DNA from: a virus
Length of the DNA: 64,000 nucleotides
Strand: one strand, 5' to 3'
IMG/VR virus record: IMGVR_UViG_3300028800_000059
Location: 113,319-177,318 of that record
The notes below the pieces were generated by a model. The model saw only the letters and a program-made list of their open reading frames with translations. It searched no databases and was not told the DNA's origin. The position numbers and the translations under genes are program-made. Of the stretch, positions 18,901 to 63,976 are shown one piece after another. Each line of letters starts with the position of its first letter. Position 1 is the stretch's first letter.

Positions 18901-20244
18901 TTACATGAGATTGCGAACCCTGAAGATTCGGTAGTAGATGTTAGCCTGACCAGCGGTGTTACGATCACCAACTACGCCGTCGCCGTTTGTAGTTGCGAAA
19001 GGATTGGCAACCATGCCGTATCGTGTCTTGAAACCGATACGTGGCTGGAAGGTATCCTGACCAACGGCACGTACCATCTGTAGTGGGACGTATGGACAGT
19101 AGAAGATACCAGCGTCATAAGGAGAAGTTCCCTTGTAACCAACCAGTGCTAGTTCGTCGCCGCTTGAAGAACCACCGAAGTATGGATCGATGTAAACTTT
19201 TACGCGACCACCGTGCATTGTACCAGCGAAGGTGTTGCCAGTGTCGTCAACGGATAGATTTGCATCCAGGTTTGGAGTGTACGTTAGAATTCCAGTCATG
19301 GACATTGCCGATGCTACGTCCGAAGAAACTAGAATAACGTTACCCTTGCCTCGACGTGTTGCTTTTGCAATAGCGTTGGCTTCACGTTCGATCTGGAAAA
19401 TCAGACCCTTGAACTTTTCACCCATCCAACGACCATTTGCGTCGGTGTCAAGGTCGAAAGTACCAGAGGTGGTTGTGCCGTAGGTGCAACCAACAGTTGC
19501 CGTACGATAGATTGTACGAATAACTTCACGATTGATTTCGGCAAGAACTTCTGTGGACAGAATGTTTGCCAATTCAGTTTCAGCGTCAAGACCATGAATA
19601 GCCTTCAAGTCTTGTGCCAATTCCATCGAGTATTCAGCCTTCAATGCTCGGCTACGTGCTGTTACAGTGACCTTGTCGATCTTGAATGCCATTTCAGCAA
19701 ACAGGTTTGCGCCAGTGTCTCCCAATGCTTCGGCAGATGCCGTGGACATTGCGTTACCAGTCGTATAGGCAATTGAGTTTGCAGTATTGATAACTGGGTC
19801 AGTACCAGTGTTGGTTAACTGGACGCCGGCTGTGTTACCTGCCTTGTTGCTGGAGGAGAAAGTCGTATCAGCTTCGTTGAACAACGCTTCTGTTCCACCC
19901 TGAGTTGAATAAGTGGAACGCATTGCGAAGATAAGCCCTGTTGGACCTGTCATTGGCTGAACGCCGCAAACATCATACGCAATCAAATTTGGTAGAGCGC
20001 GACGAACCAATGAAATCAGGATTGGATCGTAGTTGTTGATCGATGCACCAGTTGAGTTCGTTGGTGCCGATTCAGACAACATGTTTGGACGGGAGAAAAT
20101 ATCATTTTCTGTTGCCAAAACCTGGGTCTGGGTTTCCATGCAGAGTGCGGTGACCGCTCTCTTGTATGGGTCCTTGATCTTTGGTAGTGCTGGATGATCC
20201 AGAATTCCGGCCCATTTCTTTTCGATTGCTTCGTTAAGTAACAT
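18901..20244 (-). CDS. 23: major capsid protein (T4 gp23)
   Basis: A 447-residue HK97-fold capsid protein of the T4 type. Diagnostic segments are SRPNMLSESAPTN(S/T)TGA near residues 52-66, DPILISLVRRALPNLIAYDVCGVQPMTGP, and a C-terminus with QPRIGFKTRYGMVANPF. It builds the hexamers of the head. The N-terminus MLLNE|A contains an LxE tripeptide of the type the gene 21 protease cuts in T4. It has a strong late promoter at 20286, a CGGAGAG ribosome site, and its own terminator, as expected for the most abundant late product. Confidence 0.97.
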   Translation of the reverse strand: MLLNEAIEKKWAGILDHPALPKIKDPYKRAVTALCMETQTQVLATENDIFSRPNMLSESAPTNSTGASINNYDPILISLVRRALPNLIAYDVCGVQPMTGPTGLIFAMRSTYSTQGGTEALFNEADTTFSSSNKAGNTAGVQLTNTGTDPVINTANSIAYTTGNAMSTASAEALGDTGANLFAEMAFKIDKVTVTARSRALKAEYSMELAQDLKAIHGLDAETELANILSTEVLAEINREVIRTIYRTATVGCTYGTTTSGTFDLDTDANGRWMGEKFKGLIFQIEREANAIAKATRRGKGNVILVSSDVASAMSMTGILTYTPNLDANLSVDDTGNTFAGTMHGGRVKVYIDPYFGGSSSGDELALVGYKGTSPYDAGIFYCPYVPLQMVRAVGQDTFQPRIGFKTRYGMVANPFATTNGDGVVGDRNTAGQANIYYRIFRVRNLM

Positions 20245-20309: not shown

Positions 20310-21494
20310 TTATTTCTTGAAACGATCTAGGAACGCAAGTGTTGACTGCATTTCTGGGTCAACCTTGTCGTGGTTGGTATTATCTTCGGCAAGCATTTTT
20401 GCATTTTCTGGATCGCCAGCGTCTCTTGCGGCATCATCCAATTCTGCGCTAACGTTTGTCTTGTTGGCTGGGAAATAACTTTCCTTTAGAACTTCAAGCT
20501 TGGTTGCGAATTCTTCGTCGGTTGTGAATTCAGTTCCTTCGGCTAGCTGATAAACTTTTGCTGCCTGTACGTCAGTTAATTCCTTACAAGATTCCTTGAT
20601 GATAAGAACTTTCTTGACTTCGTTAAGTTCTTTCTTGGTATCGATCCCGCGCTGAATTTCTTCATTCAACTTGGTTTCCAATTCGTCAGCCTTGGCTGCC
20701 AATTCTTCGACAACATCAACCTTGTCTTCTGGAATGTCGATGTAGTGTTCGGCAAATAGTTTCTTTAGACCGGCCATGAAATCTTCGGTCAATTCTGTGC
20801 GGATGCCAGCTTCTACGGCGAGTTCATTGTCGGCAACCCACTGTTCGGCAACATAGCCCATATAATCATTGACTTTGTTTTCTAGGTCTTCACGAATAAC
20901 AGCCACAGCATCAGATAGTTCCTGTTGAGTCTGTTTGCGAAGAATTGTATAGGCTTCGGTTACGCGAGCGATAACGGCCGCTTCGAAAATTGTTTCGGCG
21001 CGGGTTTTGAATTCTTCGGATAGATCATCCTGGCCAGCCAATAGAGCATCAACATCTTCCTTGATGGCATCTTTCTTGACAACCTTCTTGATCAATTCCT
21101 TGTCTTCTTCTTCGTCATTGTGACCTTCAGTAATTTCATCGGCTTCGACAACGCGGGACTGCATTCCATGTTCGGAACCAGTATCACCAGACTGAGAATG
21201 TGTGCCGTCTACAAGCGATTCGGCACCTTCTTCGCTGTTTCCGTTACCAAACTGGTTTCCTGGATAAACGTGACGTGGTTCGTTTCCTACTGGAGGAGTT
21301 GCACCTGGAGGAGTTGCTGTTGGTGCACCGTGAGTTGCGGCCTGAGCCTTGTCGGCTGGATGACTTGGTGTTGGGCCACCAATTTCAGCTTCACCGTCCT
21401 GTGACAATTTCTTTGGCTTGTCTTCCTTGCCCTGTGCGGTATGAACAGAAGCGTTTAGAATGTCGGCTGCATCTTCTAGAAGTGTTCTTGCCAT
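20310..21494 (-). CDS. 22: prohead core scaffolding protein (T4 gp22-like)
   Basis: A 394-residue, highly charged protein. A disordered Gly/Pro/Ser-rich region (about 25-115) is followed by a long acidic helical part with coiled-coil character (KADELETKLNEEI...), as in T4-like gp22. It forms the scaffold core that shapes the prohead and is degraded by the gene 21 protease. The N-terminus MARTLLE|D carries an LxE site. It lies between genes 21 and 23 with a late promoter 43 bases upstream and CGGAGAA as ribosome site. Confidence 0.85.
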   Translation of the reverse strand: MARTLLEDAADILNASVHTAQGKEDKPKKLSQDGEAEIGGPTPSHPADKAQAATHGAPTATPPGATPPVGNEPRHVYPGNQFGNGNSEEGAESLVDGTHSQSGDTGSEHGMQSRVVEADEITEGHNDEEEDKELIKKVVKKDAIKEDVDALLAGQDDLSEEFKTRAETIFEAAVIARVTEAYTILRKQTQQELSDAVAVIREDLENKVNDYMGYVAEQWVADNELAVEAGIRTELTEDFMAGLKKLFAEHYIDIPEDKVDVVEELAAKADELETKLNEEIQRGIDTKKELNEVKKVLIIKESCKELTDVQAAKVYQLAEGTEFTTDEEFATKLEVLKESYFPANKTNVSAELDDAARDAGDPENAKMLAEDNTNHDKVDPEMQSTLAFLDRFKK

Positions 21495-21536
21495 GGTAGA
21501 TATTCTCCGTAATTCAAATTGATTGTTTGGTGAAAT

Positions 21537-21544
21537 TATTTATA
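21537..21544 (-). promoter_or_regulatory. late promoter TATAAATA for gene 22
   Basis: Exact core on the minus strand. Its TAA is the stop codon of gene 21 (21540-21542), so the promoter is built over the end of the upstream gene, 42 bases before the gene 22 ATG. Confidence 0.7.
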
Positions 21545-22199
21545 CTTTTGATAACTTTGAGAAAAACGCATCCATTACTTTAATAGCGCGAGTTTCATAG
21601 TCTTTTTGATTTTTAGACTCGTTCAAATACTTGACGGCCTTGGATTGACTTGCTGGCAACCATTGCTTGTTTTCATAGACCCATTCGGCGCCTTCGTAAA
21701 TGCCATTGACAAAGGCATCCGGGGCGGATGGATCGATTACGATATCGGCTGCTGTCATTAGGCGAAGGTCTGGTTGGACTATCGAGGCACCATTTGATTC
21801 TTTCAGCGAACCAAGAGCCCGGGAAGAAGCTGCAAGTTGGCCACCGTCATTTAGGATTGCGCGAACGATATTACCCTGTGGAGTTGTTCCAATTTTGGCT
21901 TTGCCAATCCAGTTGTCGCCGTCTTCTTTCAAAGAAGTGATACGGTGGGAAATTCTATCTTCATTGATTTTTGGTGTGTCTGGATGCCCTAGTTCGCCGT
22001 AGGCACGATTACGATTTACGTATTGCGTGATATAACGGGCACATTCATTTCGCAACGTTTCTTTTGGATAGATACGGCCATTCTTATTGAGTTTATTGGC
22101 CTGCATGAAAATGCCGTGGATGTAGTAATCCTTGCCTCCTGTTGAAGTGGCTTCGGTTAGGACTTCGAATTCTTGAATATCTTCTTTGATTAATAACAT
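21540..22199 (-). CDS. 21: prohead maturation protease (T4 gp21)
   Basis: A 219-residue serine protease of the T4 prohead protease family. Visible marks are NKNGRIYPKETL, the GELGHPDTP segment carrying the catalytic His, and SSRALGSL carrying the catalytic Ser. It cleaves capsid and scaffold proteins after (L/I)xE, then destroys itself. Its own N-terminus has FEVLTE|A, a matching site. The C-terminal tail (about 180-219) is basic and probably needed for assembly. Confidence 0.93.
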   Translation of the reverse strand: MLLIKEDIQEFEVLTEATSTGGKDYYIHGIFMQANKLNKNGRIYPKETLRNECARYITQYVNRNRAYGELGHPDTPKINEDRISHRITSLKEDGDNWIGKAKIGTTPQGNIVRAILNDGGQLAASSRALGSLKESNGASIVQPDLRLMTAADIVIDPSAPDAFVNGIYEGAEWVYENKQWLPASQSKAVKYLNESKNQKDYETRAIKVMDAFFSKLSKV

Positions 22200-22210
22200 A
22201 GTGGTATTAT

Positions 22211-22837
22211 TTATTCTTTCGCAGTTGCAGGACCGTGGTGTTTTAGGATTGCATTTTTCAAATCTTCATAGGCACTTGCATGTTGACTAGGTATTTGTGT
22301 TAGACGGAGAGTGCCTGATTTTTTTGATTGCGCCATTTTTTCAACATAATTATGTAAATGTTTATCAACTTCTGGATGAAGTCCATTATAATGTCTAGTA
22401 TCGTCTCCAGGAATCATGACCTTAACTGGTCCTCGTTTCCCAGCAATTGTATAGGAAGGAGTATGCGTTGGATGTGCTTCGATTCCTGCTTGATGAATTC
22501 CTGCACGTCCTGGATTATCGAAAGATCGACCATCGGAAGTCTTGAAACGATTTTCCCATTCGACATTGCGCCGACCTGGACCGGCTTCATTCAAAGAAGA
22601 TTCATTATAGGTTTTGCGTTTTCCTGTGCCTTTGCAAATTTCACATGTAATGGTTTTCTTCGGTCTTGTGTCGGGGCCTCCTCCACCATATGGTAAATGA
22701 ACTTGATATTTTCCTTTACCATTACATTTAGAACATGTCTTGTTTTTTTCATCTTCACCTTTAAGAAATTTATCATGGGCTCGCGCATTATCGCGTCCTG
22801 GAGACATTTCTGTTATATAAGTCTTGAATGATTTCAT
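22211..22837 (-). CDS. head-region protein with two CxxCxGxG zinc motifs and a capsid-targeting-like N-terminus
   Basis: A 208-residue protein. It begins MKSFKTYITE, a ten-residue peptide that closely resembles the T4 internal-protein capsid-targeting sequence ending in (L/I)xE. Next come two DnaJ-type motifs, CSKCNGKG (about 35) and CEICKGTG (about 65), which together could bind one zinc. The C-terminal part (GLHPEVDKHL ... LKNAILKHHGP) matches the C-terminus of the protein at 29020. A packaged head protein is suggested. It is coupled to the gene upstream by an ATGA overlap. Confidence 0.65.
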   Translation of the reverse strand: MKSFKTYITEMSPGRDNARAHDKFLKGEDEKNKTCSKCNGKGKYQVHLPYGGGGPDTRPKKTITCEICKGTGKRKTYNESSLNEAGPGRRNVEWENRFKTSDGRSFDNPGRAGIHQAGIEAHPTHTPSYTIAGKRGPVKVMIPGDDTRHYNGLHPEVDKHLHNYVEKMAQSKKSGTLRLTQIPSQHASAYEDLKNAILKHHGPATAKE

Positions 22838-23337
22838 GCTCGCAGCCCTAGTGCCTTTCTTTTCCGTAGTGACCTTTTCAAGGCCATTCTTGTTCTACTT
22901 CTTTTTGATTTTCTTTTTCGGACGGCCTTTCGAGCGCCCATTTTTCTAGCCCGTCTTTCAGCCGAACTCATTCTAACTAATCGTCCACCGCGTAACGTAT
23001 AACCTTTCACATTCGATAATCTTTTTCGGCGCTGGATTTTTCCACGGCGAATTCGAATTCTAATGATCTTGATCCGTGGAGCCTCTTCTAGATTTTCTTC
23101 TTTTCTCAAGGCTGGTTCACGATAATCTATAGTTTCATCATATTCAGGATCACTCATTCCAAAGGAATCTTCGTCCACAACATATTTCTTTGCCGAGTAG
23201 GCCTTCTTGGCTTCTTCGACCTTTTTGGCACAAATCTTTTTTATCTGTTCTTTAAATTCTTCACCAAGTCGAACGCGATTTCCCGTAATGATATGGTCAA
23301 GAAGTTTTTTATTATTGAGACCCGACACCAGTACCAC
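22834..23337 (-). CDS. basic prohead core / internal protein (T4 gp67-68 position)
   Basis: A 167-residue protein with an acidic middle (DEDSFGMSDPEYDETIDYREP) and a strongly basic C-terminal third (about 25 Arg/Lys in the last 70 residues, ending RKRKALGLRA). Arg/Lys-rich tails of this kind occur in T4-like prohead core proteins and would bind DNA or the scaffold. There is no ATG at the start. GTG 23337 or, better spaced behind GGGGTGG, GTG 23328 must be used. It overlaps the upstream gene by 26 bases. Confidence 0.6.
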   Translation of the reverse strand: MVLVSGLNNKKLLDHIITGNRVRLGEEFKEQIKKICAKKVEEAKKAYSAKKYVVDEDSFGMSDPEYDETIDYREPALRKEENLEEAPRIKIIRIRIRRGKIQRRKRLSNVKGYTLRGGRLVRMSSAERRARKMGARKAVRKRKSKRSRTRMALKRSLRKRKALGLRA

Positions 23338-23884
23338 CCCGAGGTGATCTTACTCCGGCGTTGAATGCCATAGGATCGGCTGTCTGGCCCATGTCATAAT
23401 CTGTTCCAATCCACTGACCAGTCTTTCGGCCTTCAATGATTACTGTATAACCAGTGTTGGCAACCATGCCCAATGTCTGCAATCCAATATCGCCTTTTGT
23501 ATTGGCGGCCGGAAGATTGTTTTTGAATACATCCACATCCGAAGCAGATTCGAACAAGGCGGTACCAAGACCAGCGGCCACGATTGTTGCATTTGCTACG
23601 TTGGTTGGATCAGTCGAGGCCCAGAATATAATTACTTCACCAGCAAGACCGTTTACAGTAATATTAATACGTTTGATTGTTGTCCGATATGTGGACAAGT
23701 AAACACTGTTAGCGTTGCCGGCAGCAATCAAACCATTGGTGTCCAATGCACCCTGTAGATTAGCGACATGAATTTTTGTATTTGATGTTTCCTGCCCGTT
23801 TGCACCATCAAATCGTCCGATAAGTTTGATTACAAATCGACGTGAATTGTCTTCTAATGTTTGAGTTTCGAATATGTTTGCCAT
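23312..23884 (-). CDS. virion structural protein, 190 aa
   Basis: A beta-rich, Ala/Thr/Gly-rich protein without low-complexity repeats, typical of capsid decoration or tail-associated proteins (FVIKLIGRFDG near residue 17, a Gly-rich C-terminus). The position in the head cluster between genes 21 and 20 favours a head role. It has the ribosome site AGAGGAT and a TCTAAATA late-type element just upstream. Family not recognised. Confidence 0.55.
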   Translation of the reverse strand: MANIFETQTLEDNSRRFVIKLIGRFDGANGQETSNTKIHVANLQGALDTNGLIAAGNANSVYLSTYRTTIKRINITVNGLAGEVIIFWASTDPTNVANATIVAAGLGTALFESASDVDVFKNNLPAANTKGDIGLQTLGMVANTGYTVIIEGRKTGQWIGTDYDMGQTADPMAFNAGVRSPRGGTGVGSQ

Positions 23885-23901
23885 GGGTTATCCTCTTCGT
23901 C

Positions 23902-24204
23902 TTATTTAGATTTTAGGCTGGTTATAATTTTGGAAACCCTGGTAGATTCAGGCTTATAGGATTCACTTACCGTAGAAATATCATCGTCTTTACCCGACAC
24001 GTTATATGGTACCGAAATATATTTGTCAATTGCGGTTATGTAATAAAGAGCAATTCGTTTTCCTTGAGGAAATGTCCGAATTGCTGTTCGCCGCATTATA
24101 AGGGTTGGTGGAGGATCGCGGTGTGACGTTGATGGTGTGTTATCATCGTCCTTCTCGTTGGCGCTCTCCACCAATTCTGATTTGAATACTTCAAGGGTTT
24201 TCAT
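23902..24204 (-). CDS. hypothetical head-region protein with targeting-like N-terminus, 100 aa
   Basis: Starts MKTLEVFKSELVE|S, which again looks like a T4 capsid-targeting peptide ending at an LxE cleavage site. The middle is disordered and acidic, the rest beta-like (RIALYYITAIDKYISVPYNV). Coupled to the gene upstream (TAATG). No recognised domain. Confidence 0.5.
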   Translation of the reverse strand: MKTLEVFKSELVESANEKDDDNTPSTSHRDPPPTLIMRRTAIRTFPQGKRIALYYITAIDKYISVPYNVSGKDDDISTVSESYKPESTRVSKIITSLKSK

Positions 24205-25607
24205 TAGGCAATCCTAAATGCTTCCCCGTGTTTTGGATTATCTAATTTGTGTCTTTCGATAGGTGCTGTTGTTGGATGTCTTTTTCTATGACCAAGAATA
24301 GTCGAAGCATCATTCACTTGATCCAAATATTTTGCTTCGGCCTTTGGATCGTGACTTTGTACGGCCTTGGCTGCTTCTCCAGCATCCTTGATGATATAAT
24401 GCAATTCAGCATCAGATTTTTTATGATACGGGTGATGTAGAAGGGGAGTGGAATAACGCGCTTCCTTTAAGGCATGTTTTTTAGCCGACTCTTCATTTGT
24501 AAAGAATCCTAATTTACCTTTTTTGTTTTTGGCCGTCCAAAGAGGCTGGGAATGTGGATGAATCTTTGGTGCTTCTTTATATTCACCAGGCTTTAATTCG
24601 CTCTTGGTTTTGTAATTGATCTTAGAATCTTCGCTGAGTCTATCCGTAGCCTTGGAAATTCCACGGAGTCTCTTTTCGGTTCGGTCATGTTCTTTATTGG
24701 CCAATGTTGGTCTTCCGGCCGTGTGCATCCCGGCCCGCGTTGCGCTCATTTGAATATCAGCCGCAGCACGTTTTACATATGAGCCAAGAGTCTTCTTTGA
24801 AAGCTCGGTTAGAACCGCTTCGCCTAGTTTTACTTTTCCAGACCCGGCACAATTTTTGCAGGTTACATCGCCCATTTCTACTTCGCCTTTTTTATTGCTA
24901 GAAAAGGCATGTGTTTTTCCTGTACCCTGACATGGCCGACAAGTTCCCATAGTTGGCTTTAACATGGACTCAACAACATATTCCTTGAATGATTTTAGAG
25001 CCTTTTGTTTTCCGGTTCCTTCACATGTTTTGCAAAGATAGGCTCTTGGTCCATATATCTTATCGCCTCTTCTACCAGTTCCCTTGCAATCAGGACATTC
25101 TTTTTTATTTTCTTCTTTGCCGCTACTTTCTCCAATGCGATATGGACCAGAATGATGAAAATGATGTGCCCAGGCATTGCCTTCGGTCTTTCGGACCATA
25201 TGTTCTGGAACCTTGGCTGATTCGTAGTCGCCATGATCAATCACAACAAAAGGAGAACCATGTGGATCGCCTTTATCGTGTCGCACAACCAGACCGCTTT
25301 TCATTTTTCCTTTGTGCGGGAAGCTTACTTTGTCGCCAGGGTTGAAAGATTCTCCAAATGCCCGATCACCATCACCATTGTTGGCCTTGATATCGCCCGT
25401 GTTTGTTGCTGGCTGGGCATCATCCATTAGCGATGTTTTCTTTGCATAGCTTTTTGTTGGATCAAGTTTTAGTTGTGGCGCTGGTTTCTCAGGTTCTGGT
25501 GCCGCGGCTGGCTTTGAAGGCAGCGCACGATTGATGATAGCATGAAGCTGGGCGCTACGAATAACACCATCGCTTTCGGACAGAAATTGAGAAAGAGTTT
25601 TAGCCAT
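24204..25607 (-). CDS. head-region protein with a full set of four DnaJ-type CxxCxGxG motifs
   Basis: A 467-residue protein starting MAKTLSQFLSE|S, a targeting-like peptide with an LxE site. Residues about 75-140 form a small KOW/SH3-like stretch (GDKVSFPHKGKMKSG..). Then come CPDCKGTG, CKTCEGTG, CRPCQGTG and CKNCAGSG, the same number as in the DnaJ cysteine-rich domain, which binds two zincs and unfolded protein. There is no J-domain. The C-terminal half is basic and charged. ATG 25607 is preceded by GGAG; it overlaps the upstream stop (TAATG). A chaperone-like role in head assembly or an injected protein are both open. Confidence 0.65.
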   Translation of the reverse strand: MAKTLSQFLSESDGVIRSAQLHAIINRALPSKPAAAPEPEKPAPQLKLDPTKSYAKKTSLMDDAQPATNTGDIKANNGDGDRAFGESFNPGDKVSFPHKGKMKSGLVVRHDKGDPHGSPFVVIDHGDYESAKVPEHMVRKTEGNAWAHHFHHSGPYRIGESSGKEENKKECPDCKGTGRRGDKIYGPRAYLCKTCEGTGKQKALKSFKEYVVESMLKPTMGTCRPCQGTGKTHAFSSNKKGEVEMGDVTCKNCAGSGKVKLGEAVLTELSKKTLGSYVKRAAADIQMSATRAGMHTAGRPTLANKEHDRTEKRLRGISKATDRLSEDSKINYKTKSELKPGEYKEAPKIHPHSQPLWTAKNKKGKLGFFTNEESAKKHALKEARYSTPLLHHPYHKKSDAELHYIIKDAGEAAKAVQSHDPKAEAKYLDQVNDASTILGHRKRHPTTAPIERHKLDNPKHGEAFRIA

Positions 25608-26500
25608 TAGGAACTCCAATATGCTTCGGATTCTGGACTTGCGTTATAACGTGCCTGGCGTTGATTAAAATCGTTTCTCCATTGTGATTTGTTCATGCCA
25701 GTGCCCTTACAAGATTTACATGATTCTATATCGACACCACTGGTATGAACTTTTCCAGTGCCATGACACGCCCGGCAGCCATATTTTACTTTCTTGTCGG
25801 CTGCTGGTGTATTCTTGGTTGCGGCTACGACATTTTTAGCTGCCTTTGTTGGTTCTGGCTCGCTCCAACTTACCTTAATTGCTTCGCCAAAAATCTTCCC
25901 GGCAACTTCGACGCGCTTTAGGAGTAGATTGTCCTTGACGTGGGCGCCAATTGCTCCCTGGAAGACCTCCGCGATTGCGGATGGGTTTTCCATGATTGCA
26001 AAATCAATAATCTGTGCTGCATTGGATGGGGTTTCGTTGTCTGTCATGTTTGTTTCCTTAATATGATTTCGGCCAAGTTTGCCTGATGCCTTTGATGATC
26101 CATAACCACGTCTTACTACATCACCCATCATTTTATCGTTGTTCAATTCACTGCCTTTTTCTCTGTGACGTAATGCTCGACGTTTCAATGTTTTATTTTG
26201 TCCTTTGGTTTTTTCATCCAAAGCAACTCCTTCAGCCATTTGAGTTGGATATAAATGATGAATGTATTTGCCGTGGATCATGTTCTGATATGGCCGGTGT
26301 CTATCTGGAAGAGAACCTTCCTTGTTCCGGGATCTAATGATTTTCTTGGTGTTGGCGTGTTCTTCTTCGGTTCCAAAATGTTTGGCGAGTAAGGCAATGT
26401 TTTCAGAATGATAGTTTTGATCCTCGTTTTTTTCGTATTCAGATTTGATTTTATCAATGGTGGCACCTTTTCGTGCTTCTTCTAATGTTTCTACAGTCAT
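25607..26500 (-). CDS. head-region protein: unknown N-terminus, prohead-core-like middle, two CxxCxGxG motifs
   Basis: A 297-residue protein. Residues 1-150 are basic and unknown. Residues 152-225 (IIDFAIMENPSAIAEVFQGAIGAHV...KRVEVAGKIFGE) resemble small T4-like prohead core proteins. The end has CRACHGTG and CKSCKGTG. An internal ATG at 26047 has its own strong ribosome site (AAGGAAAC), so a shorter 146-residue product starting at the core-like part is likely as well. It lies directly after gene 20, where T4 gene 67 lies. Confidence 0.6.
   Translation of the reverse strand: MTVETLEEARKGATIDKIKSEYEKNEDQNYHSENIALLAKHFGTEEEHANTKKIIRSRNKEGSLPDRHRPYQNMIHGKYIHHLYPTQMAEGVALDEKTKGQNKTLKRRALRHREKGSELNNDKMMGDVVRRGYGSSKASGKLGRNHIKETNMTDNETPSNAAQIIDFAIMENPSAIAEVFQGAIGAHVKDNLLLKRVEVAGKIFGEAIKVSWSEPEPTKAAKNVVAATKNTPAADKKVKYGCRACHGTGKVHTSGVDIESCKSCKGTGMNKSQWRNDFNQRQARYNASPESEAYWSS
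26053..26059 (-). promoter_or_regulatory. internal ribosome binding site
   Basis: Minus strand AAGGAAA followed by CAAAC and the in-frame ATG 26045-26047. Spacing and match are better than at most annotated starts in this region, suggesting a second start inside the gene. Confidence 0.5.
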
Positions 26501-26502
26501 GT

Positions 26503-28416
26503 TTATTTCCCTGGTTTCTTTGGTGCCGTGGTAACTTTATTTAGATTTCCCTGAGGTTTCTTTACTGGTAGTGATGCGTTTGATTGTTTCGCGGCTCCAC
26601 TATTCGCTCCTACATCGGCCGTCTTATCGTCAAACGGTGTTGGAGCATCGGCTGAACCTCCTACTGGCCGATCCGGAGTTTCTCCTTCTTCTGGAGGCAT
26701 ACCAGTTCCCATGCCACCTGGACCAAATCCAGCCGCCTTTTGTTCCTCCATCAATTCTTTTTCTTCTTCAATTTCTTTGTCAATTTGCTTGATTTCTTCT
26801 TCGTCTTGATGCAGGACGTTCTTACGAATCCATTGCTGTGAGTAATAAACTCCCTTGAATGGTTCGACCAGTGACAACACCGACAACCGATTCATCAGTA
26901 GTTCGGCTTCTTTCAACTCAGTGAAATTGTTGTCCTTTAAGAAGTCATAGTAAATATTTTCGCGAATTTGGCGCCATTCGGAAACTGAGCAAATACCCTT
27001 CAATGAAAGTTGAATTCGCATAGCTTCATCGAACACAGTCGCAAATCTATTTCTCAGACGAGTAATGAATTTGGAGAACTTAACTTCGTCTCGCGTAATT
27101 TCTGTGGTACGACCAAGACCCATACCACCATGTTCCTCGCCTTGTTCGACACGGCTATAAGGAACCGAAAGGGCCTTGTAGAGTTTCTTTTCGAAATACT
27201 TTACATCGGCCAATTCGCCTAGATTTTGTCCAGCCGGCAGAGTAGAAATTTCTGTGCCTTTTGAACCTTCACGGCGAGGCAACCAGAAGTCTTCCAACAT
27301 GGCCATGTATTTACGGTCGTTTCGAATTTCGCCAGTGTTGGCATCATAGACCAGTTTGTTTCTATACTTGGTCATTAGATCGCGAAGATATTGTTCGGCC
27401 TTGACCTTTGGAAGTGAACCAACATCCACATAGAAAATTCGCCGTTCTGGCGCACGAGACAACCGATAAATTACGATGGCGTCTTCGGTCATACGCAACT
27501 GATTAAGCGGCTTGATGGCCTTGTCAAGATAAGATAAAACAATTGCGCGGCGAGAGTCCATCAATCCAGATGCCACCGAAATAATGCTGTCGGTTGCAAT
27601 TCGAAGGCCTAGATTAGAATAGGCACCAATGACGCCGCGCTCGTTATAGACGTAGTATTCATTGACGGCTCGAATGATTTCGGCGCCGCTCTTTGGGTCT
27701 TTTGTTTTTTGGACTTCACGGACCTTACGGATACGTCTTGGATCAATGTAGCGAAGTTCCTTGATGCCAGCCTTTGGATTTGTTTCGTCCAAAATTACGT
27801 GGAAGAAAATTCGTCCATCGACATACCAGCGGCGAAACAGTTCATCGCCCATGTTAGAGAAATTCAAAAGCTTTAGAATAACGTCGAATTGCTCGTTGAT
27901 TTTTGTTTTGATGTTGTCTGGTTGTTCAAGGTTGTCCAACATCATTGTAACAGATTTGCCAGTTTCATCATGGACAATGGCTTCGTTTACAATGTCGTCA
28001 ATACAAGATTCGCATTCTGGCTGCCGCGCCATTTCACGATATTTCGTGATAAGTTTTACTTCGTCACGGACAATACCTTCAAGATCAACGAATGTGCCAT
28101 AGTAGGCACCTGATTGAATAACAACGGCACCGTCGTCATTGGATGGTAGCGCGAATGATTTTGTGTTTCCAGATGCAAGTGTATCCTGAGAAACAACTGT
28201 GTTTCCGCTCATGCCGGCTGGCTGAATTTGAAAGCCGAACATGTTGAAAAGAGATTCGTTTAGTTTTTGAATTTCCAGAGCCCGCTGGACAGGATTAGCA
28301 GTAGAAAGAGCCGGCCGAAACAATTCTGTGAGAGAATCGTTTGGTAGTGAAATGGTTTCTTTTAGACGGCTCTTTGTAGCAGCAGGACTCTTTTTCCGTT
28401 GCGTTGTTTTGGCCAT
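26503..28416 (-). CDS. 20: portal vertex protein (T4 gp20)
   Basis: A 637-residue T4-type portal. Typical segments are RYIDPRRIRKVREV, the tripeptide-rich VDVGSLPKVKAEQYLRD, and EVKFSKFITRLRNRFATVFDEAMR in the stem/clip part. The dodecamer starts prohead assembly and is the channel for DNA packaging. The C-terminal 90 residues are a Gly/Pro/Lys-rich tail, longer than in T4 (524 aa in total there). It sits between the tail tube gene and the prohead core genes as in T4. Confidence 0.95.
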   Translation of the reverse strand: MAKTTQRKKSPAATKSRLKETISLPNDSLTELFRPALSTANPVQRALEIQKLNESLFNMFGFQIQPAGMSGNTVVSQDTLASGNTKSFALPSNDDGAVVIQSGAYYGTFVDLEGIVRDEVKLITKYREMARQPECESCIDDIVNEAIVHDETGKSVTMMLDNLEQPDNIKTKINEQFDVILKLLNFSNMGDELFRRWYVDGRIFFHVILDETNPKAGIKELRYIDPRRIRKVREVQKTKDPKSGAEIIRAVNEYYVYNERGVIGAYSNLGLRIATDSIISVASGLMDSRRAIVLSYLDKAIKPLNQLRMTEDAIVIYRLSRAPERRIFYVDVGSLPKVKAEQYLRDLMTKYRNKLVYDANTGEIRNDRKYMAMLEDFWLPRREGSKGTEISTLPAGQNLGELADVKYFEKKLYKALSVPYSRVEQGEEHGGMGLGRTTEITRDEVKFSKFITRLRNRFATVFDEAMRIQLSLKGICSVSEWRQIRENIYYDFLKDNNFTELKEAELLMNRLSVLSLVEPFKGVYYSQQWIRKNVLHQDEEEIKQIDKEIEEEKELMEEQKAAGFGPGGMGTGMPPEEGETPDRPVGGSADAPTPFDDKTADVGANSGAAKQSNASLPVKKPQGNLNKVTTAPKKPGK

Positions 28417-29019: not shown

Positions 29020-29418
29020 TTACTTACGGTGTGGACCATGATGATGTAGAATTGCTGCCTTCAATAAGTCATGGTGTTTATCGGACATTTGAGCCCAATA
29101 TGTTCTATCCTTTTGGCCGTTAGATGATCCATGATGATATGCTGCGCTCATGGCTCCTTCCAGGTGTCTCAAAACCTCTGGATGAAGTCCTGGTTGTGGA
29201 TTAGTTGGGCCCTCAAATTCAGCAGCCGCTTCGGCTCCGGCATGATGCCGGCGTTCGGCTGCATGTCTCGCTGGTCTTGGAGAAGGATGGTTCTCCCAAG
29301 GAGAAGTTCCATCTACATCTTCTTCTTTAAAAAGTGCCGCGCGAATTTCTTCTGTAGTTTCTTTTGGTTCTACAGTGATTCCTTGAATCAAATAACGCTC
29401 TAATGTGTCTCTTGCCAT
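29020..29418 (-). CDS. histidine-rich protein sharing a C-terminal module with the 22211 gene
   Basis: A 132-residue protein inserted between sheath (18) and tube (19) genes. The middle is rich in His, Ala and Pro (RPARHAAERRHHAGAEAAA). The C-terminus (LHPEVLRHLEGA...LLKAAILHHHGP) matches the end of the 208-aa protein at 22211. The shared module spans about 55 residues with conserved HPEV and HHGP. It has AGGAGA as ribosome site and a GATAAATA late-type element (29424-29431). Function unknown. Confidence 0.55.
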   Translation of the reverse strand: MARDTLERYLIQGITVEPKETTEEIRAALFKEEDVDGTSPWENHPSPRPARHAAERRHHAGAEAAAEFEGPTNPQPGLHPEVLRHLEGAMSAAYHHGSSNGQKDRTYWAQMSDKHHDLLKAAILHHHGPHRK

Positions 29419-35909: not shown

Positions 35910-36786
35910 AATTGATTACTTGATTTCCTTCGATTTGCAATTCTTCACCATCCGAAACAGTAAATGTTTCAGTATTGGCAATATCTAATTCATCAAAACT
36001 CGAAAGCAATCTAATTGTATTAGAAACACTACCGGAAACATTGATGCTTTCTTGGAATTCTCCTTTTGGAGGATATACAATAAGAGTATTGGTTGGGGCG
36101 TTCCAGCTTTTAACTTCGGCCGAAGCAAAGGAGGTATTCACGTTTGATCCTCCCTGATAAACAATTTCTCCCGAAATGTAATTACCACTACCTGCTGATA
36201 AATGCAGCGAAATAGCATAAGCCAATTCTTGCCGTACGGCATCGATATCGTCCACGCCTGTCTCCAATACTTCCTGAGAGTAACGAAAGGTTTCCACGGA
36301 TAATTCGTACACGTAGGATTCCTTGAAGGATTTGCCCAAGGTGCCAAAATTATATTCTTCATTGACGAATTTGATTTCGAACAATTTATCGAATACAGGA
36401 ATAAAAATGAGGTCGCCTTCTCTTGGAACTATAGCCAAATTTGTTGGCATTACTTTTTTGAATGTTCGGCGTGATATAATTAGGCTCGTGGAGTCTCGTA
36501 CCTCTAATCCAAATTTTGTGAAGAATTCTGAATCGCCAGTGAATCCATCCACTTTGTTAATATACATCGGCATCAGAAATGATCGCTTGAATTTCTTGAC
36601 TGGGTCTTCCCCAAATAATAAATCTACTTGATCTTGGCTTTCCCGCACAATATAATATACTGGCGCGGCGTGCATAATGATGACTTCTTCCAATAGGTCC
36701 TCGATCAATTCAGTTTCGTTTGATCGCCCAGCTTTAGGATAAAGGTCAAAATATTTGTTGAATAGTGGAGTCGCTTGTTGAGGCAT
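35875..36786 (-). CDS. 14: neck protein (T4 gp14)
   Basis: A 303-residue protein. Residues 20-170 match T4 gp14: NETELIEDLLEEVIIMHAAPVYYI, DLLFGEDPVKKF, FFTKFGLEVRD and PREGDLIFIP. The C-terminal part (about 204-260, GEIVYQGGS...EVKSWN) is an extra module also present in gp15 and gp8 of this phage. gp13 and gp14 seal the portal after packaging and allow tail joining. The 3' end overlaps the convergent HNH gene. Confidence 0.9.
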   Translation of the reverse strand: MPQQATPLFNKYFDLYPKAGRSNETELIEDLLEEVIIMHAAPVYYIVRESQDQVDLLFGEDPVKKFKRSFLMPMYINKVDGFTGDSEFFTKFGLEVRDSTSLIISRRTFKKVMPTNLAIVPREGDLIFIPVFDKLFEIKFVNEEYNFGTLGKSFKESYVYELSVETFRYSQEVLETGVDDIDAVRQELAYAISLHLSAGSGNYISGEIVYQGGSNVNTSFASAEVKSWNAPTNTLIVYPPKGEFQESINVSGSVSNTIRLLSSFDELDIANTETFTVSDGEELQIEGNQVINFNEVNPFGSPD

Positions 36787-36789
36787 GTA

Positions 36790-37572
36790 TTACCCAACAA
36801 AAAATTCTGGTGGAAATTGAACTGCGTTTTCTATATGATCTTTGGCGGCCTGTTCTTCCCGTGTAGCCTCATCATAAATCTGTTGTCCGTTCATAGTGAC
36901 ACCACCAATCAAGGCCACGCCTGAGAACTTCTTTAGATTTTGTCCCCATTGTTTTTTGACCAGGGCGGTCGCCAAAGTTTTCAAGGCTCGGTCGTTATAT
37001 ACATCCAAAAAGGTATCCGGTGAAACTATCTGGGTGGCTTCGTATATGATAAACTGGCCTGATAATTGGGCGCCTGTTGCCGAATCGGACCAATCCATAT
37101 CAATGTATAGTCTGTTATTGTGTCTATTATACCGAACTGGTGCTTCTCCATTGAATAACATATCGAGCAAGCGTAAATGTGTCATTGTGGTCCAATAGTT
37201 GACTACCGAAGTTGTGGTAAAATCATATAGATCATTCAATCGAATTTGATAACGAATATCGAACATGTTTAACGTAGAATTTCCATCGGTTGGTGGAAAA
37301 ATTCTTGACACCCCAACTACTGAATCTGGAATTGGTATCCATTTGTTCGCCACGTCCGTATCCGTGAGTTGATATTTGTTATAGACTTTTTCGGTTGCGT
37401 CCACATGATAATCTTGGAACCATTGCATGGCATCATCTACACAATCTTCCAATTGCATATCATCAATATTGATTTTAATGACCGGCGCTCCACACTTTCT
37501 AAGACAATAATCCTTTAGGTCTTGTCTGGATGCAAGCGAGAAATAAAGTCCTGTATTTGCTGAATCTGCCAT
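36790..37572 (-). CDS. 13: neck protein (T4 gp13)
   Basis: A 260-residue protein with the gp13 marks INIDDMQLEDCVDDAMQWFQDYH near residue 34, RIFPP, and the C-terminal TLATALVKKQWGQNLKKFSGVALIGG. It works with gp14 in the head-tail connector. Start ATG 37572 lies seven bases after a TATAAATA core, without a ribosome site. Confidence 0.92.
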   Translation of the reverse strand: MADSANTGLYFSLASRQDLKDYCLRKCGAPVIKINIDDMQLEDCVDDAMQWFQDYHVDATEKVYNKYQLTDTDVANKWIPIPDSVVGVSRIFPPTDGNSTLNMFDIRYQIRLNDLYDFTTTSVVNYWTTMTHLRLLDMLFNGEAPVRYNRHNNRLYIDMDWSDSATGAQLSGQFIIYEATQIVSPDTFLDVYNDRALKTLATALVKKQWGQNLKKFSGVALIGGVTMNGQQIYDEATREEQAAKDHIENAVQFPPEFFVG

Positions 37573-37579
37573 GATGTAG

Positions 37580-37587
37580 TATTTATA
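37580..37587 (-). promoter_or_regulatory. late promoter TATAAATA before gene 13
   Basis: Exact core on the minus strand, containing the stop codon of the upstream adhesin gene (37583-37585) and only seven bases from the gene 13 ATG. Confidence 0.65.
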
Positions 37588-38827
37588 GTTCCAAATAAAA
37601 TACTAAAGCCTGAGTTATGTTGATTACTGGTACTGGATAGCCAAAATAAAGAACTTCATTGATTAATTTCCAGGCAGAGTTTTTTGATATATTGGTGACT
37701 AGGGCACCTGCCGGTCCTCTATTCGACCCTGCTAGTCCTCGACCATAACTGTATAATCTTGGATCGTTTGTGTAGGGAGTTGCTGGACTATAATCAACTA
37801 TTACCCAAACATCTTCCACAGTAGTTAGATTACCATCAGCGGCCTTTGTTACTCCAGCCTCCAACAAATCAAGATTAGAAGAGGCCGTTGTCCAAATACC
37901 ATCATCGAAATAAGCATCGGATGTGGTGGCTGTAATTGCTGTATTGGTTGTTGTTCCATTAATACGCCGTAAGATAGATGGGTTGCCAGAAGTAGCCCTT
38001 TTTATTATTACGGCAGTTTTACAGGCATTAATGGTATCTATATTACGGATAACTTCGGTGCCGTGACCGGTTTGAATAATAGAAAACGGATTAATGACCA
38101 TACTCTGCGAAGAACCGCTTGTAGAACTAGTGCAATTAGAAGTAGCAACAAATGGAGTGTCTGACCAAAGAGTATAGGCTGTTGTGCCTGTTGATTTAGT
38201 CCAGGCATCATAGGTTGGAGTTCCTATTCGGCCTTGTCGAGCTAATATTTTACCTGATGCGACAAATGTTGTTGTACCGGTATCAATACGAACATCGTCA
38301 TAATATAGATTAGAATTTGAAACTACGAAATTGGCAGCGCGCCATTGATCTGTGGGGGAACCAGTAACATCGTTTGAATGTGTAGTGTTGACAATGTTTA
38401 CACCATCAAGATAAAATTGAACTACGCCGCCTGCTGCCAAATCAAATACATAGTTAATTGTATACCATTGATTAGGATTTAATATGTTACTAGGAATTTG
38501 CGTGGACATACCAATAGTTCCACCAGCATCAGATATATTTAAGACGCCAGTGGTTCTGAGAACTGCTTGAAGTCGAGAACTGCCTGACGTAGGAGCCTCT
38601 GAAAAGAAAGCCACGTCATTAGTAGGTAAGGCATCAAAGAAAAATCGAATTCGTGTTGATGATTGTGTAGCAGCAAGTCCCTTTACAAAGGTTGTGCGGC
38701 CTTGATTTGACGCGATTTTAAGAGCATAATTACCACTAGATACTATGGTACTTTGAATAGTTCCAGTAAGTGTATTTACTTCGCTGCCATCACCGGTTTC
38801 GAATCCACAAATATATGCTACAGCCAT
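37583..38827 (-). CDS. lectin-like (LamG/concanavalin-fold) virion adhesin
   Basis: A 414-residue protein. Residues 1-200 follow the laminin-G-like jelly-roll plan: GFETGD near the start, NQWYTINYVFDLAAGGVVQFYLDGV, and NLYYDDVRID at the end of the domain. The rest is Thr/Ser/Asn-rich beta structure, common in receptor-binding or decoration proteins. It opens the fibre/adhesin block that follows the neck genes. The ligand is unknown. Confidence 0.6.
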   Translation of the reverse strand: MAVAYICGFETGDGSEVNTLTGTIQSTIVSSGNYALKIASNQGRTTFVKGLAATQSSTRIRFFFDALPTNDVAFFSEAPTSGSSRLQAVLRTTGVLNISDAGGTIGMSTQIPSNILNPNQWYTINYVFDLAAGGVVQFYLDGVNIVNTTHSNDVTGSPTDQWRAANFVVSNSNLYYDDVRIDTGTTTFVASGKILARQGRIGTPTYDAWTKSTGTTAYTLWSDTPFVATSNCTSSTSGSSQSMVINPFSIIQTGHGTEVIRNIDTINACKTAVIIKRATSGNPSILRRINGTTTNTAITATTSDAYFDDGIWTTASSNLDLLEAGVTKAADGNLTTVEDVWVIVDYSPATPYTNDPRLYSYGRGLAGSNRGPAGALVTNISKNSAWKLINEVLYFGYPVPVINITQALVFYLEL

Positions 38828-63487: not shown

Positions 63488-63976
63488 TTATTGCTCCGTC
63501 GGTAACAAACCAGAATAGTATTTCTTTGCATTGGCATTGGATGCCTTGATGTTCGAACTCCAATGTTGAATGGCCGTGAAAGCCGCAGCATCCCGCTTGT
63601 GTGCCTTATAGCGTGGATCATGTAATCCTGTTGCAACCACAGGATGTTTAGGATCGAATTGGCCATGGGTTACATCCAATATTTTATCGTCATGTTCGAC
63701 CCAGCAATGACAATCAAAAGGATCAAATGGAACTGCGCCGGCATCACCATATTTGGAATAACTACCAAGAACAAAATGAGAGTCCTTGCCTTGATTGACT
63801 AGATGATTATGGAGTGCCCAACTTGCCGCACCACATGTCCCAATGCATTCGGTCTTATTACCTGGTCCACCATTATACAGTCTATTATAATGATCCACCG
63901 CCTTGCCTCTAAAGTGTTCAAGGACCTTAGAAGATAAAGCCTCTTTCAAAGATGTTAGGAAGGATCGCATGTCCAT
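63488..63976 (-). CDS. protease/transglutaminase-like protein with a capsid-targeting-like N-terminus, 162 aa
   Basis: Begins MDMRSFLTSLKE|A, similar to the T4 internal-protein targeting peptide with an LxE-type site. The core shows a plausible Cys-His-Asp triad: CIGTCGAASWALHNHL (Cys at about 48), then HCWVEHDDKILDVTHGQF (His about 90, Asp about 101), as in transglutaminase-like, NAT or papain-fold proteins. The basic C-terminal part is Lys/His-rich. It is co-transcribed with gene 53. It could be a virion protease or an injected effector. Function is inference. Confidence 0.55.
   Translation of the reverse strand: MDMRSFLTSLKEALSSKVLEHFRGKAVDHYNRLYNGGPGNKTECIGTCGAASWALHNHLVNQGKDSHFVLGSYSKYGDAGAVPFDPFDCHCWVEHDDKILDVTHGQFDPKHPVVATGLHDPRYKAHKRDAAAFTAIQHWSSNIKASNANAKKYYSGLLPTEQ

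Follow-up and report, generated by a model that had tools for sequence, protein, structure and literature searches.

The question raised by this locus is whether several proteins encoded in the head-gene region of an uncultured T4-like phage begin with the capsid-targeting peptide known from the internal proteins (IPs) of phage T4. The window, that is, the whole stretch of 64,000 bases that was analysed, corresponds to bases 113,319-177,318 of a 177,318-base virus record (IMG/VR record IMGVR_UViG_3300028800_000059). A first-pass annotation had proposed such peptides for window proteins of 208, 467, 100 and 162 amino acids (aa), with cleavage by the gene 21 protease and packaging into the head. 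The reading favoured here, with a probability of about 0.86, is that the 208-aa protein, the 467-aa protein and at least four proteins encoded outside the window (at 64.0-73.7 kb of the phage, in G000 coordinates) carry leaders that work as in T4, the 100-aa protein having a variant, and that all are cut by gp21, packaged and ejected.

Leader peptides at protein starts in the phage

Mutagenesis of T4 IPIII has shown that residues 4 and 7 drive targeting and residues 8 and 10 processing, and that gp21 cuts after L/I-x-E (PMC9026906). Because fitting a motif to the data at hand was to be avoided, a strict motif was fixed beforehand from this work, M-x(2,3)-[FYW]-x2-[FYW]-[ILV]-x-E, corresponding to aromatics at residues 4 and 7, I, L or V at residue 8, and E at residue 10. 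It is found at the start of five of the 283 open reading frames (ORFs) of the 177-kb phage, against 0.09-0.13 expected in shuffled sequences, and at none of 916 internal Met contexts. The N-termini quoted in the first-pass annotation are all present, on the minus strand, and the enrichment of N-terminal leaders is real and above chance. One of the five ORFs lies inside the window (22211-22837) and four lie in the second cluster outside it. When the 53,097 9-mers of the predicted proteome are ranked by score, the six best are six N-termini, those of the five strict-motif proteins and of the 467-aa protein.

Within the window, the leader of the 208-aa protein, MKSFKTYITE (22808-22837, minus strand), has exact aromatics at residues 4 and 7, ends in ITE10, and is the second-best 9-mer of the whole proteome. 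The predicted packaged protein (22211-22837, minus strand) carries one CxxCxGxG pair and a C-terminal GLHPEV...HHGP domain. In the leader of the 467-aa protein, MAKTLSQFLSE (25575-25607, minus strand), Leu replaces the first aromatic, with a shift of one residue, and the peptide ends in LSE11; its profile score of 18.1 is one at which no match is expected by chance, and it ranks fourth of 283 with a profile built from T4 and KVP40. This second predicted packaged protein (24204-25607, minus strand), which has two CxxCxGxG pairs, is read from the ATG at 25607, four codons into the longer ORF 24204-25619. The mature window proteins have isoelectric points (pI) of 9.6, 9.5 (the 467-aa protein) and 9.3.

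The leader of the 100-aa protein, MKTLEVFKSELVE (24166-24204, minus strand), departs further from the motif, with Leu at residue 4, Phe at residue 7 and an LVE13 ending, and scores weakly in the main profile; with the T4 and KVP40 profile it ranks sixth of 283. Relatives encode conserved versions of this predicted head-core protein (23902-24204, minus strand) in which a domain has been inserted behind the leader. Its orthologues, encoded between genes 20 and 21, start MKSLKDFLQREVIEE, MKSLKDFLQKEIKED and MKTIKQILSE, and a fourth has the candidate start VKTLKELRSLNE if read from a putative GTG; in three of the four, a different stretch separates the leader-like start from the shared domain. The 100-aa leader is probably a targeting peptide, as had been proposed.

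The strongest cases are in the second cluster (G000 64,045-73,701; L085), where MSKTYSKFIKE, MKSYNSFLKE, MKLFKDWLKE and MKSFKTFIQE are found next to holin (GTA_holin_3TM) and endolysin (GH108) genes. A late promoter, TATAAATA, lies 13 bases upstream of the leader gene at G000 64292, which encodes MKSYNSFLKE, and the cargo encoded at G000 73288 has no homologue in IMG/VR. The same cluster encodes a 650-aa protein (G000 70660-72612; L085:10660-12612), with a late promoter 98 bases upstream of its gene, in which a zeta-toxin-like kinase (PF06414, E-value 1e-13) is fused to an ADP-ribosyltransferase (PF03496, E-value 7e-17). It is possibly an analogue of Alt, the injected ADP-ribosyltransferase of T4, sharing that domain and sitting among leader genes, but it differs from Alt in carrying the extra kinase, and its start, MTKSILQE, is without the aromatic pair. 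Assignment of this protein to the leader class is unsupported, as HTVC008M encodes a stand-alone kinase whose start matches MTKSILQE.

Unrelated proteins share the leader across T4-like phages

In a comparison set of 19 T4-like genomes (4,110 ORFs), the true spacing of the motif gives 28 matches, whereas 19 alternative spacings give 0-9, and replacing E with D, K or Q gives 4, 1 and 4 matches, respectively. The aromatic is at residue 4 exactly in 23 of the 28 leaders. Once the leader is left out, the 28 proteins sort into 23 groups unrelated to one another, which marks the tag as a module rather than as evidence of common descent of whole proteins. Recognition also transfers in both directions between T4 and the phage studied here. 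A profile trained without T4 puts gp61.1, ipII, ipIII and ipI ahead of all others among 274 T4 ORFs, and one built from five peptides of T4 and KVP40 alone returns, as the top seven of 283 ORFs, the four second-cluster proteins together with the 467-aa, 100-aa and 208-aa proteins.

The resemblance to the targeting sequence of T4 IPI, IPII and IPIII (Mullaney and Black 1996, in PMC9026906) extends over a ten-residue N-terminus with aromatics at residues 4 and 7, I or L at residue 8 and E at residue 10, and includes a gp21-type protease and mature parts that are mostly basic and mutually unrelated. The phage differs in being far more distant, and its cargo in being larger (up to 456 aa once the leader is removed), in bearing zinc-knuckle modules and, in one case, in having a second internal site. 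Two further observations come from these comparisons. The best capsid-targeting match among T4 ORFs is gp61.1 (18966-19130, 54 aa, MKTFKEFIKE), which is annotated as hypothetical, and DUF6267 proteins (L122:14494-15690, L110:12316-13551 and G001 36560-37792) combine a leader with a KYDG motif resembling that of nucleotidyltransferase ligases.

For cyanophages, proteins with the same type of leader have been recovered from purified virions by mass spectrometry. Three regulatory enzymes are listed for virions of S-CREM2 (PMC10665884 Table 3), and these rank first to third among 215 ORFs with a profile that never saw S-CREM2: a cytidylyltransferase (MKNFSSFLTE), an S-adenosylmethionine (SAM) hydrolase (MKDFDSFLEE) and an APH/ChoK-like kinase (VKRFDAFLTE, from a GTG start). 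Similarly, the virion kinase of S-CRM01 (PKN8) starts MISFDQFLSE, the virion cytidylyltransferase of S-SM1 starts MKKFSAFLNE and the virion NMNAT of S-SCSM1 starts MKSFLQFLKE, while the virion cytidylyltransferase of S-SZBM1 has a shortened leader, MRFRQFIIE. The cargo domains are unlike those encoded by the phage studied here, and the authors of the virion studies drew no link to a targeting peptide (PMC10665884, PMC9602691). The S-CREM2 and S-SCSM1 papers left carry-over of such enzymes during purification open (PMC10665884, PMC9602691), and a targeting leader on virion enzymes argues against carry-over. In the open-access PMC literature, no paper tying capsid targeting to cyanophages was found, a T4 review aside. 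As a separate observation, the virion-detected Cas9-like nuclease of S-CREM2, ORF12 (L219 4205-6814), may have a non-canonical leader, with RFASFMAE close to its N-terminus.

Head genes, zinc-knuckle proteins and the 160-aa protein

The window leaders are found beside the genes that the T4 mechanism involves. The gp23 of this T4-like phage is 58-64% identical to those of Pelagibacter, Methylophilales, Stenotrophomonas and cyanobacterial T4-like phages, and up to 78% identical to those of uncultured contigs. The head region, on the minus strand, follows T4 gene order as 20, core cassette, 21, 22, 23, the T4 reference order being 20-67-68-21-22-23. Gene 20 (26503-28416, minus strand), for the portal protein, was assigned from a megablast match to cyanophage portal genes and from gene order. 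Gene 21 (21540-22199, minus strand; Peptidase_S77, E-value 9e-33) encodes the prohead protease, which presumably cuts the leaders; it is 37% identical to T4 gp21 with the GELxHP and SSRxLGSL motifs conserved in the alignment, and has an N-terminal LIxE in nearly all relatives. Downstream are gene 22 for the scaffold (20310-21494, minus strand; T4_CASP, E-value 1e-64) and gene 23 for the major capsid protein precursor (18901-20244, minus strand), identified by sequence matches to the gp23s of T4-like phages. Late promoters (TATAAATA) are present upstream of genes 22 and 23; none is directly upstream of the leader genes at 22211 and 24204, both of which are within the gene 20-23 run.

The first-pass annotation had also pointed to LxE near the starts of gp22 and gp23. 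Both are present, and MARTLLE at the start of gp22 belongs to an N-terminal [LI]xE retained in most close relatives. MLLNE, on the other hand, was rejected as the maturation site of gp23: all 16 gp23s compared have [LI]xE at residues 52-65, and here the predicted site is LSE58|SAPTN (20071-20079, minus strand), corresponding to LTE65|AEIGG in T4.

The remaining cassette genes encode proteins of several kinds. A basic protein encoded where T4 has gene 68 (22834-23337, minus strand) is conserved in six relatives and matches a head scaffolding family (phrog_3503, E-value 3e-4), and a 190-aa protein without a leader (23312-23884, minus strand) is conserved in relatives at E-values of 8e-24 and weaker. 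The gp67 position is taken by a 297-aa protein without a leader (25607-26500, minus strand), which has additional N-terminal sequence besides its C-terminal CxxCxGxG pair, and residues 178-223 of which resemble a protein of phage Mosig whose gene adjoins the Mosig portal gene (E-value 1e-4).

The phage encodes ten CxxCxGxG motifs, forming five pairs, and these are confined to four proteins, namely the 208-aa, 467-aa and 297-aa proteins and a 584-aa protein of the second cluster, and two of these four have leaders. The description of such proteins as zinc-finger and DnaJ-like stands in part: the CxxCxGxG zinc modules are shared with DnaJ chaperones, but Pfam scores for the module are all under the cut-off (DnaJ_CXXCXGXG, E-value 0.0025, for the 208-aa protein), and no Pfam match to a J domain was obtained for the products of the genes at 22211, 24204, 25607 or G000 68011, hence membership of the chaperone family is not claimed. 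The sole protein of S-CREM2 with a CxxCxGxG pair, ORF111, was also detected in S-CREM2 virions. Between the two zinc modules of the 467-aa protein is a second leader-like site, KSFKEYVVE|SM (24969-24995, minus strand), the ninth-best of the 53,097 9-mers. It is possibly a gp21 cut that would split the protein into a two-part cargo, although internal sites this good also arise by chance, and several unrelated ones score equally. The C-terminal GLHPEV...HHGP domain of the 208-aa protein is also found by BLASTP at the C-terminus of a 132-aa protein that is encoded between tail genes (29020-29418) and has no leader.

For the last of the proposed leader proteins, of 160 aa rather than 162 (63488-63970, minus strand), the peptide MRSFLTSLKE (63941-63970, minus strand) is the start from the second Met and carries Ser at residue 7, where the motif calls for an aromatic. 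Its profile score of 7.4 is at chance level; a score this high is expected by chance for about one ORF in each genome, and the leader is therefore unproven. The likeness of the protein to a protease or transglutaminase is also weak. Cys, His and Asp do occur in transglutaminase-like order, but the Pfam match (Transglut_core3, PF13471, E-value 0.0066) is under the cut-off, no relative was found in the PDB, and the AlphaFold model, with a predicted local distance difference test (pLDDT) score of 42, is unusable. Neither IMG/VR nor the phage collection yielded homologues of the 208-aa, 467-aa and 160-aa proteins, apart from a short, weak match of P-RSM6 to the 467-aa protein in the phage collection; nothing useful came from the PDB or NCBIfam.

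Packaging, degradation or chance

If the leaders function as in T4, the hydrophobic face formed by the aromatics at residues 4 and 7 would dock each protein on the gp22 scaffold core during prohead assembly. Activated gp21 would then cut after E10 or E11, or at LVE13 in the variant leader of the 100-aa protein, leaving the mature protein free inside the shell, where DNA would be packaged around it before both are ejected into the host. Targeting peptides on the 208-aa and 467-aa proteins are favoured by the motif, the spacing and position controls, the transfer of the T4 profile, the gp21 homologue, the gene order and the cyanophage virion proteomics. Packaging and cleavage in this uncultured phage are what T4 and the cyanophage proteomics would lead one to expect, while injection, like a part in countering host defences, would follow purely by analogy.

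Several points weigh against this reading. The phage is known from its genome alone, and the record of presence in virions is limited to cyanophage proteins that share its type of leader. Even there, leaders are modestly enriched when all virion proteins of S-CREM2 are considered (P about 0.01), since the tail and shell proteins that make up most of the virion need no leader, and the regulatory class in which leaders rank highest was chosen by the authors of that study. The leader family SSZBM1_191/SSCSM1_30 was undetected in virions of the phages that encode it, though its members are only about 105 aa long. Lastly, the cargo encoded at G000 65641 is acidic (pI 4.2), whereas the T4 IPs are basic.

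An alternative is that the leaders belong to scaffold or core proteins, like gp67, gp68 and gp22, which are assembled and cut, their mature parts being destroyed or structural rather than injected. T4 gp22 and gp67 are indeed cut into small peptides (PMC9958956), and three window proteins are encoded among core genes between genes 20 and 21, where the 100-aa protein is conserved. However, the same leaders are found on virion enzymes (SAM hydrolase, kinases, NMNAT), and four of the cargo genes are distant from the core genes. This alternative is rather unlikely. Whole-protein homology or recent duplication, in place of a leader module, could be suspected from the domains that some cargo share, such as the C-termini of the proteins encoded at 22211 and 29020 and the CxxCxGxG modules. 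This explanation is highly improbable and, as judged from the sequences, is already contradicted by the 23 unrelated mature groups and by the 29020 protein, which has the shared domain without the leader. It is improbable in the extreme that short N-termini rich in Lys and aromatics recur without function, by chance or through the composition of translation starts. Weak members such as the 160-aa protein are what chance would give, but the controls on spacing, residue and position, the shuffles, the transfer of profiles between lineages and the virion proteomics all oppose it, and for the six strong members a chance origin is very unlikely.

The targeting mechanism is already known from T4; its cargo here and the link to cyanophages appear to be new. 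It is moderately likely that the T4 targeting peptide serves T4-like phages in general, cyanophages included, as a modular export tag, which would load diverse enzymes for delivery (SAM hydrolase, protein kinases, NMNAT and cytidylyltransferases, ligase-like DUF6267 proteins, zinc-knuckle proteins and, possibly, a Cas9-like nuclease), such that injected effectors could be read from the genome. If the leader works in this way, N-termini would make it possible to predict which proteins T4-like phages, including those of ocean cyanobacteria, package and probably inject. This would settle whether the kinases, SAM hydrolase and NAD-synthesis enzymes found in cyanophage virions are contaminants or genuine cargo, and would provide a list of candidate effectors that act early in infection against host defences.

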